Below, piece by piece: positions 28,894 to 33,137 of a stretch of DNA of 57,600 bases. Made by a program: the position numbers and the translations under genes. Below the pieces are notes generated by a model. It made no database searches. It saw only the letters and a list, made by a program, of their open reading frames with translations, and had not been told where the DNA came from. The first letter of the stretch is position 1, and each line of letters opens with the position of its first letter. The stretch is from Alphaproteobacteria bacterium (GTDB lineage: Bacteria; Pseudomonadota; Alphaproteobacteria; Rhizobiales; JAJFHR01), in the NCBI GenBank assembly GCA_024278055.1, contig JAJRTY010000172.1, positions 1 to 57,600 of the forward strand, read 5' to 3'.

Positions 28894-29045
28894 GTGAAAA
28901 CCGCACCTCACAAAAATTTTATGGTTTGAAACCGGATATCGAATATCTTTGCATATTTTCTCTGGTGACAAAACAGCACTTGCAGTAATTTGACTATGCC
29001 GATCCATCACCAGCACATAGAATGATGTTCATTCAAGAGGGTAAT

Positions 29046-29720
29046 ATGAAATCAGTCAGTCCGGCAATCATAACAGCAACACTTACGGCTTTGGTGACCA
29101 TAGGACTGATTGCGCTGCTGTTTATGTTTCCGGTCAACCTCGATGGGATTTTTGACAATGACATCGGCTTAAGGAAGAACACGTCAAGTATCTCCGCCAA
29201 AAAAGGCTTTGCATCCAAAGGAACTGCCGCCGAAAAAACCGTGTCCGCAGGCGAGACAGCTGCCCCCATGACCATGGACCGGCTTAACACCATTATCACC
29301 CGGCTGGACAATAATGTGGAAAAGCCGCGCAACGGCTTCTGGCGCTTCACCGTAACCGGTGCCACTGTTATTGTCGTCGGCGACGAGACTTTTGATCGCC
29401 TGCGTATTCTTGTCGGCATTCAAAGTGCCGAAAATTTGACGAAAGACCAGTTGATGCAGATTGCCAAATCAAATTATGACACCGCCCTCGATGCCCGTTA
29501 CGCCATTTCCCAGAATATTCTGTGGTCCATGTACGCCCACCCGCTAAAATCGCTTGGCGACAGACAGTTCATTTCAGCCATCGGCCAGACCGTAAACCTG
29601 GCCATATCCTACGGCGACGGCTATTCCTCAGGCGGCATACTCTTTGAAGGCGGTGACATCAAAGATGTCCAGCGCAACAAGATGATCGAGGATCTGATCA
29701 AAAAAGGCCTGAAGGCATAA
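29046..29720 (+). CDS. membrane-anchored member of an unrecognised paralogous family
   Basis: Starting at ATG 29046 after AGAGGG, the 224-residue protein has one N-terminal membrane segment (about 5-27), a Ser/Ala/Lys-rich linker and a C-terminal domain of about 130 residues. The domain is clearly homologous to the protein encoded at 50885-51496; shared stretches include YDTALDARYAISQ, AIGQTVNLAISYGDGYSSGG and the C-terminal IKKGL. The mix of strands followed by helices resembles YbjN/CesT-like chaperone domains, but that is only an impression. I do not assign a function. It is followed 23 bases later by the SH3b/VHL gene. Confidence 0.78.
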   Translation: MKSVSPAIITATLTALVTIGLIALLFMFPVNLDGIFDNDIGLRKNTSSISAKKGFASKGTAAEKTVSAGETAAPMTMDRLNTIITRLDNNVEKPRNGFWRFTVTGATVIVVGDETFDRLRILVGIQSAENLTKDQLMQIAKSNYDTALDARYAISQNILWSMYAHPLKSLGDRQFISAIGQTVNLAISYGDGYSSGGILFEGGDIKDVQRNKMIEDLIKKGLKA

Positions 29721-29743: not shown

Positions 29744-30385
29744 ATGAATTACCTTTTCAAATTATCCTTCTCTCTGGTCTTTCTGTTAGGTGTTGGGTTT
29801 GCCAATGGACAAGGTATAGAGGCCGGATCCTGGGGAGGAAAAGTTCGCGCAGGTCCTGGCATGCAGTATCAGCAGGTTGGCAGCCTTCGTAACGGCGACC
29901 CGGTTAGATTGCTGGAAGATACCCGTGTAATGATGAACGGCTACCCCTGGTATCGTATTTCTTACCGGGGAGGGAACATCGGTTACCAGTGGGGCGGAAT
30001 TCTTTGCAGTTATGACAATCCGATTGGCGGTATATTCAAAATCTGTGAAGTTGATAATCGGCGCCAAACATCTGCTCAATCACAAGGTCAGCAAGAGCTG
30101 TCTTGCTCGGCAGAAAGCCAGACACGTTCGATAACCGGCAATATACCCGCGAGTATAAGTTTTCGCGTCATTGGTGAAAACGACGAAACTCAATTTAAGA
30201 TATACTGGCTCGACTATCAGGGTCGTCGCAAATTTTACAAACACATATTTGCCGGAGACACATATCAGCTCACCACTGCCATGACACACCCATGGCTGGT
30301 TACCGCCCCCATACCCGGTGGTGGTGAAGACTGTATTGCAATCTATCTGCCTCAAAAAAACGGTCGAACCATTATCCTGCGCTGA
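29744..30385 (+). CDS. exported SH3b + VHL beta-domain protein
   Basis: The 213-residue protein has a signal peptide (about 1-22), a bacterial SH3 domain (about 28-90; KVRAGPGMQYQQVGSLRNGD) and, after a Gln-rich linker, a domain closely resembling the beta domain of the von Hippel-Lindau protein (about 122-205): ISFRV, FKIYWLDYQGRRKFYKHIFA, THPWLVT, CIAIYLP. SH3b domains bind cell-wall peptides; bacterial VHL-like domains have no settled role. It follows the paralogous-family gene closely and converges with the MBL-fold gene. Confidence 0.8.
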   Translation: MNYLFKLSFSLVFLLGVGFANGQGIEAGSWGGKVRAGPGMQYQQVGSLRNGDPVRLLEDTRVMMNGYPWYRISYRGGNIGYQWGGILCSYDNPIGGIFKICEVDNRRQTSAQSQGQQELSCSAESQTRSITGNIPASISFRVIGENDETQFKIYWLDYQGRRKFYKHIFAGDTYQLTTAMTHPWLVTAPIPGGGEDCIAIYLPQKNGRTIILR

Positions 30386-32231: not shown

Positions 32232-33137
32232 TTGCGATACAGAATATCCCGAAAAGTCAATCTTATCCTGGCTAAATTTTTCAAAGTGCCGCGAAAACGC
32301 GCCCAGCTGATTGCCAAGGGCGTCAATTATGCGCTGCAACCCTTCGCTTATCGTCCGCGCAAGGAAATGGCGCAAAAACTCAAAACCACACCTGCATCAC
32401 CCTTGCACATTGACAACAAAACGGCATTTTGCCTCACTGATTTTGCTGAAATTCCTGAAGTCACCCCGGCCATAGAACGCGCAAGGCAGGTTTATGCCGA
32501 AGCCCGCGCGCAGGAAAGTCTGAAAAAATCCAAAGGCGGCAAATCCAAAAAAGAATTTCTGGTCTACGCCAGCCAGTCACATCAATCAGCCCAATATGAC
32601 GAGTTGATTAAGCTTGCACTTGCCCGTCCGGTGCTTGATGCGGTGGCAAGTTATCTCGGCACCATGCCAATTCTCAATTGCCTGCATATTATGGTCAGTG
32701 AGCCTAATGATTCAGCCGTTGACAGCCAGCTTTATCATCTTGATTTTGCCGATGTGCATCAGGTCAAAATGTTTGTCGCTTTGGAAGATGTCACCGATGA
32801 TCACGGACCCTTCACCTTCCTGCCCAATGACGAGACGCTCGAACTTATCGACAGGACCGGTTACGATCGCGGACGGTTGACAATTGAGGAAGTGGAAGCA
32901 GCGGTTGGGGCTGAAACACAGATTTCGCTGACATGTAAGCGCGGCGAAGGCGTATTGCTCGACACCTCAAAATGCATGCACTACGGCTCAAAGGGCAACA
33001 AATATCCCCGCCTGATGCTGATGATCCAATATACCGATTACTATGTACCCGAAGCCCCGCCGACGCGCTGGCCGATTGCGGAACTGACGCAAAAACATGG
33101 TCTCGACCCGGTTCAGGTTATGGCCCTTGGAGGGTAG
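32232..33137 (+). CDS. PhyH-like Fe(II)/2-oxoglutarate dioxygenase
   Basis: The 301-residue protein has the H-x-D of a jelly-roll dioxygenase in YHLDFADVHQ, the distal His in KCMHYGSKG and an Arg in NKYPRLMLMIQY. Phytanoyl-CoA-dioxygenase-like enzymes hydroxylate lipids, sugars or small molecules. A TTG start (32232) follows GAAAGG and gives the basic N-terminus MRYRISRKVNLI. It is at the left edge of the surface-carbohydrate block, so a sugar or lipid substrate is possible. Its 3' end converges with the SGNH fragment. Confidence 0.78.
   Translation: MRYRISRKVNLILAKFFKVPRKRAQLIAKGVNYALQPFAYRPRKEMAQKLKTTPASPLHIDNKTAFCLTDFAEIPEVTPAIERARQVYAEARAQESLKKSKGGKSKKEFLVYASQSHQSAQYDELIKLALARPVLDAVASYLGTMPILNCLHIMVSEPNDSAVDSQLYHLDFADVHQVKMFVALEDVTDDHGPFTFLPNDETLELIDRTGYDRGRLTIEEVEAAVGAETQISLTCKRGEGVLLDTSKCMHYGSKGNKYPRLMLMIQYTDYYVPEAPPTRWPIAELTQKHGLDPVQVMALGG

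Follow-up and report, generated by a model that had tools for sequence, protein, structure and literature searches.

A putatively exported alphaproteobacterial protein combines a bacterial SH3 domain with a pVHL-type beta domain that retains the residues of the hydroxyproline pocket

In animals, the beta domain of pVHL recognises hydroxyproline as part of the oxygen-sensing pathway, and pVHL itself is a much-studied reader of protein modification and a leading handle for degrader drugs. The question raised by a single bacterial gene, at positions 29744-30385 of the DNA analysed here, is whether this same domain is present in a protein that appears destined to leave the cytoplasm and, if so, what such a domain might bind. 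The stretch concerned (the window) is one entire contig of 57,600 nt (JAJRTY010000172.1, forward strand) from Alphaproteobacteria bacterium, assembly GCA_024278055.1, with a genome size of 3.57 Mb.

The nearest genome, a sister within the same genus, contains an ortholog that shares 87% identity across all 213 residues (BLAST), and 66 of the 97 differences between the two genes fall on third codon positions. The ortholog is retained at this level, and dN/dS between the two genomes is 0.10 for the gene as a whole and 0.14 for its VHL portion; the locus is therefore a real gene on which purifying selection acts. In a third member of the genus (genome G057, 83% complete), no match to the window protein was detected. 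Immediately upstream, with 23 bp between its end and the VHL gene, lies a gene for a 232-residue protein with a single hydrophobic N-terminal stretch (29022-29720, + strand), for which a Pfam scan at E <= 1 returned no match. An operon comprising these two genes was considered and rejected: a counterpart of the upstream gene is present in the sister genome, but without adjacency to the VHL gene, an opposite-strand gene (L049 5097-6554) being located between both, and there is no conserved operon. Approximately 1.8 kb downstream, the window encodes a PhyH-type 2-oxoglutarate oxygenase (32232-33137, + strand; Pfam E 7.8e-5), which is also retained in the sister genome; nothing ties this gene to the VHL protein.

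The encoded protein comprises a signal-like start, an SH3_3 domain and a C-terminal homolog of the pVHL beta domain (Table 1). In the full-length model (mean pLDDT 87.3, pTM 0.52) both domains are predicted with high confidence and are separated by a weak linker, while residues 1-20 have low pLDDT values (52-55). The SH3_3 match (PF08239) scores 38.7 bits, above the Pfam cut-off of 27, and the conserved SH3 module runs to residue ~102 in alignment A4. Together, the Pfam score and the confident modelling of both domains bear out the fusion to a bacterial SH3 domain that had been proposed from the sequence. The window's SH3_3 subfamily is common in this order and is found also in proteins without VHL. 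Export, which formed part of the same proposal, is likewise favoured: the N-terminus resembles a signal peptide by eye and, as judged by a heuristic, a strong hydrophobic stretch lies upstream of the VHL domain in 63 of 67 relatives, such that the protein is probably exported. Two cysteines within the C-terminal domain, C121 and C197, may form a disulfide; both are missing in some gammaproteobacterial relatives (e.g. L067 and L070).

Table 1. Features of the SH3b-VHL gene and its product, and of a module shared by related proteins. Frequencies refer to 69 bacterial VHL-type domains.
Feature	Residues	Position	Strand	Basis or remark
Whole gene, SH3b-VHL protein (putatively exported)	1-213	29744..30385	+	213 aa plus stop; conserved in sister genome
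Signal-peptide-like N-terminus	1-22	29744..29809	+	Lys, hydrophobic stretch, then small residues, by eye
Bacterial SH3 (Pfam SH3_3)	31-81	29834..29986	+	E 1.1e-9
Low-confidence linker	~103-115	30050..30088	+	pLDDT 62-71 per ten-residue block; <50 at 110-114
pVHL-type beta domain, alpha domain absent	116-213	30089..30382	+	Profile, model and fold searches
Cysteine	C121	30104-30106	+	Invariant, column C6 of A1
Trp88 of pVHL	W155	30206..30208	+	W in 65/69
Tyr98 of pVHL	Y165	30236..30238	+	Y in 52/69
Ser111 of pVHL	T178	30275..30277	+	T/S in 67/69 (T 59, S 8)
His115 of pVHL	H182	30287..30289	+	H in 63/69
Trp117 of pVHL	W184	30293..30295	+	W in 68/69
Cysteine	C197	30332-30334	+	Invariant, column C82 of A1
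~125-aa module	L037 100-222			Stop-to-stop frame residues; also in L031, L032, L038, L040, L042, L044
~125-aa module, further carriers				L089, L090, L091, L099, L102

The VHL-like motifs of the second half were located at residues 154-172 (YWLDYQGRRKFYKHIFAGD), 181-187 (THPWLVT) and 199-203 (AIYLP). When scanned alone, the window protein matches the Pfam VHL family (PF01847) over residues 151-186 with E 0.0037 and 17.7 bits, below the family cut-off of 21 bits, and the isolated domain, at 19.8 bits, is still below it. The sub-cut-off score represents the detection limit of a single-sequence scan, and homology rests instead on profile searches and on the predicted fold. BLAST recovered relatives of the C-terminal half within the same order, and 20 domains make up alignment A1. 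All 20 match Pfam VHL individually at E <= 10 (best 1.3e-14), and the 20-row profile recovered human pVHL from the PDB at E 1.2e-10. The sole row recruited through the Pfam VHL search, L051, was removed and the profile test repeated: with the 19 remaining relatives, none of which had been selected by likeness to VHL, human pVHL again came out on top (E 5.2e-11), with entries other than VHL appearing only from E 0.77. A profile of the seven closest relatives also placed 24 pVHL chains at the top, although with weak E values (0.026-0.11). More broadly, 62 of 67 bacterial proteins match PF01847 at E <= 0.01. The human stretch aligned by sequence is about 62-122, leaving AIYLP outside, whereas the structural alignment, which reaches pVHL residue 152, includes it.

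Structural comparison gave the same result. The AlphaFold (AF2) model of the domain has a pLDDT of 94.2, and a Foldseek search with it returned pVHL chains as all 50 of the 50 matches listed (best E 3.1e-5). A second fold search, in which the 50 matches listed were again exclusively pVHL, gave a Z score of 10.9 and an rmsd of 2.0 A over 83 aligned residues, with model residues 10-98 superposed onto pVHL 61-152; among the 50 matches listed for the full-length model, too, only pVHL chains were present. Prediction and superposition, the check that the sequence-only reading had put forward, therefore recovered the pVHL beta-domain fold and not an unrelated one. The homology of the C-terminal domain to the pVHL beta domain is well supported, and its assignment to the second half of the protein stands, although the limits first given, 122-205, were slightly short of the approximately 116-213 indicated by the model.

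The window protein is alike human pVHL (PDB 1LM8, 1LQB and 4AWJ) in predicted fold, in sequence homology and in five pocket residues, Thr taking the place of Ser111, but differs in having an export-like signal and an SH3b domain in front, and in ending at residue 213, directly past the last beta strand. Elongin C is bound by the C-terminal alpha domain of pVHL and, because that domain is missing, the window protein is no E3 subunit. An intracellular function resembling that of animal pVHL, whether as a ubiquitin-ligase adaptor or as the oxygen-sensing partner of a prolyl hydroxylase, could be argued from the homology and from two matches to the PF13640 oxygenase family in the window genome. 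However, with the Elongin C-binding domain absent and the structural alignment stopping at pVHL 152, with an N-terminus that resembles an export signal, and with neither PF13640 co-occurrence (see below) nor a conserved operon, such a function is highly improbable.

The hydroxyproline site of pVHL is described as comprising Trp88, Tyr98, His110, Ser111, His115 and Trp117, in which Ser111 and His115 bond the hydroxyl of hydroxyproline, Tyr98 bonds the carbonyl and His110 supplies a backbone carbonyl (PMC9528729). By residue identity the window protein has the pVHL pocket, again with Thr at position 111. Conservation of the site was assessed in 69 non-identical domains from 67 proteins (77 domain hits, domain E <= 1e-3, with the two relatives in genomes G317 and G342 left out), with weighted entropy as the ranking criterion across 61 human positions. 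Positions 88, 98, 111, 115 and 117 rank 3, 13, 5, 4 and 2 of 61, a level of conservation equalled by 9 of 200000 random five-position sets, and one that is biased upward because the domains had been selected through their similarity to a pocket-bearing protein. Removal of the motif-fetched loci, leaving 49 domains, gave ranks of 3, 16, 6, 4 and 2, with 13 of 200000 random sets equally conserved. The complete pattern W-Y-[ST]-H-W is present in 51 of the 69 domains and W-x-[ST]-H-W in 62; the latter is broken in 7, and position 98 is not Tyr in 17. Within the window protein's own subfamily (seven rows), all five residues are invariant. Conversely, the residues that read the flanking peptide are poorly kept (N67 in 12 of 69 domains, R69 in 2, P99 in none, R107 in 3 and I109 in 4), as is the His110 side chain (1 of 69), while Tyr or Phe occupies the F91 position in 52 domains and the Y112 position in 56. 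Since N67, R69, P99, R107, I109 and H110 are not retained, the central site is kept but its context differs, and the flanking HIF contacts of human pVHL are not retained in the bacterial domains. A kept centre with changed flanks may point to binding of the same kind of residue in other sequence contexts.

The predicted fold and the pocket residues are well supported; why the residues are retained is a separate matter. Glycine 93 has the top conservation rank, and N78, S65 and F76, none of which is listed for the central pocket, come close to the pocket residues in conservation, which indicates that structural packing accounts for part of the conservation. The domain might accordingly be a structural beta-sandwich spacer or a dimerisation module in which pocket residues are kept only for core packing, a view that fits the roughly equal conservation of G93, N78, S65 and F76. 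However, two polar positions, 111 (Ser/Thr in 67 of 69) and 115 (His in 63 of 69), stay conserved amid variable neighbours (110, 113 and 116), and a purely structural role is considered improbable. The point that pocket tryptophans can be kept for folding alone nevertheless counts against the ligand-binding explanation preferred here.

The family extends well beyond the window. A pattern scan of named genomes returned 23 loci, including examples in alpha-, beta- and gammaproteobacteria (e.g. Pinisolibacter, Pseudoduganella and Pseudomonas) and in Actinomycetota (Micromonospora, Actinoplanes and Streptomyces), together with single-MAG loci in one Gemmatimonadota, one Bacteroidota and one Obscuribacterales. 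By their labels the relatives span five phyla, three of which rest on single MAGs where contamination is possible. Searches with A1 detected the VHL domain in at least 34 of 150 genomes of the order, at least 9 of 385 of the class and at least 7 of 299 of the phylum; Pfam's own VHL model detected it in 1 of 249 in the phylum.

The 67 full-length proteins, a set pooled from several searches as opposed to a random sample, mostly have no Pfam partner domain. Those partners that were identified (E <= 0.01) include several that point outside the cytoplasm, namely SH3_3 in 7 proteins, the MVL mannan-binding domain in 4, MliC in 3, and LprI, ricin-B lectin and CVNH in one each; Peptidase_M56 and DUF3471 were found in 2 each, and RTX repeat, Hint and caspase domains, among others, once. 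A purpose-built SH3 profile identified 6 of 67 proteins against the 7 found by Pfam. The SH3b domain precedes VHL in five, namely L001 (the window protein), L005, L063, L072 and L074, of which L072 and L074 come from MAGs with the labels Rhodobacteraceae and Pseudoprimorskyibacter, whereas in L034 the order is VHL, LprI and then SH3b. The five proteins fall into two groups in the tree (changes 2), and the SH3b-VHL order may have had one origin. Human VHL lies on a very long branch (2.26) in no supported set, and the tree gives no direction of transfer.

Several other architectures were observed among the relatives. A module of ~125 residues precedes VHL in 12 of the 67 proteins (Table 1) and occurs also in the SH3b proteins L007 and L008; one carrier, L042, scanned alone in Pfam (E <= 0.01), gave VHL as the sole match. 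In Streptomyces typhae, L083 (1979-4177) has a caspase domain (C14) and a TPR match, with VHL at the C-terminus, and might be a protease with a VHL-type recognition end. Four alphaproteobacterial proteins that are probably exported (L053, L054, L055 and L061) have a short domain C-terminal to VHL; Pfam identifies it as MVL in L053, and the similar C-termini of L054, L055 and L061 suggest that these are the remaining three MVL carriers. L059, one of the two proteins with a BlaR1-type Peptidase_M56 domain, and L097 both have a VHL-like domain without W88 and H115.

The presence of candidate partner enzymes was compared between genomes with and without the domain. PF13640 oxygenases occur in 63 of the 150 genomes of the order, and were not enriched in VHL-bearing genomes (17 of 34 versus 46 of 116 others, p 0.33); the idea of a hydroxylase partner was rejected on this basis. 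In a single case, G119, PF13640 and VHL genes are on one contig, ~7 kb apart. Similarly, the PF05544 family of proline racemases and hydroxyproline epimerases, present in 82 of the 150 genomes and in two copies in the window genome, showed no enrichment (20 of 34 versus 62 of 116, p 0.70), and a link to hydroxyproline catabolism was discarded. The overlaps were counted by eye from tables, and the test is a weak one since both families are broad. Bacterial prolyl hydroxylases that act on EF-Tu have been described (PMC6235002, PMC5653532). The null co-occurrence is the chief counter-evidence to a hydroxyproline-type ligand; it argues against hydroxylation of that ligand by the cell that makes the protein, and less so against a foreign source.

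The conserved pocket, taken with the lectin and lysozyme-inhibitor partners, suggests extracytoplasmic recognition, and two forms of this can be weighed. In one, the same exported binder would hold a different ligand in the pocket, either part of the cell's own envelope (a stem peptide of peptidoglycan, the tail of a lipoprotein or a residue linked to a glycan) or a lysozyme-like attacker, and the protein would guard or monitor the cell wall. The SH3_3, MliC, LprI and BlaR1-type M56 partners (7, 3, 1 and 2 of 67) are in keeping with this, as are L034, in which VHL, LprI and SH3b occur in a single protein, and the missing link to hydroxylase or hydroxyproline-catabolism families. It is a possibility of some weight that is nonetheless on the doubtful side, since the retained Ser/Thr111 and His115 are the pair described as bonding the 4-hydroxyl in pVHL (PMC9528729). 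Moreover, the lectin partners (MVL 4, CVNH 1 and ricin-B 1 of 67) suit foreign glycoproteins equally. We know of no reason why a peptidoglycan peptide would need that pair of residues.

The explanation preferred here, held tentatively and at somewhat below an even chance, is an exported, non-catalytic binding protein whose VHL pocket grips a hydroxyproline-like ligand. The signal peptide would target the protein for export, the SH3b domain would keep it at the cell envelope, and the VHL-type domain, to judge from homology and pocket conservation, would grip the ligand via W155, Y165, T178, H182 and W184. That ligand would carry 4-hydroxyproline, or a hydroxylated ring resembling it, in a sequence context unlike that of HIF, and would most likely be supplied by an extracytoplasmic or foreign protein. 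As for the recognition of envelope peptides suggested in the sequence-only reading, the ligand may be a component of the cell's own envelope, or else a foreign hydroxyproline protein.

EMK97_00595 of Litorilituus sediminis, a bacterial protein that is secreted and carries a VHL beta-domain annotation, has been reported previously and is treated there as a possible tumour suppressor; the portions of that account available here give no family-wide analysis of pocket, architecture or distribution, and name no SH3b fusion (PMC9002001). Among the matches listed in literature searches on bacterial VHL, its origin, prolyl hydroxylation and PF01847, which covered mostly freely accessible papers and were judged partly on titles and the start of abstracts, this was the only one to treat a bacterial VHL protein, and none gave an account of a bacterial VHL family, its pocket or an SH3b-VHL fusion. 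Annotation of a bacterial VHL protein is thus already in print for one protein, whereas the family, pocket and fusion appear to be new.

A bolder proposition is that the pVHL beta domain is the scaffold of extracytoplasmic hydroxyproline readers in at least five bacterial phyla. On this view the animal oxygen-sensing reader would derive from this older domain or have a common ancestor with it, and the pocket would predate HIF; as a whole this is unlikely, at perhaps a quarter of full confidence. With a broad bacterial family that has the pVHL fold and pocket residues, it becomes testable whether hydroxyproline is recognised by bacteria outside the cytoplasm, and whether the oxygen-sensing reader is older than the oxygen-sensing pathway. 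The family would also provide small VHL domains without a need for Elongin, for use in binding studies, and there may have been an older, extracellular use of the hydroxyproline-recognition domain in bacteria.
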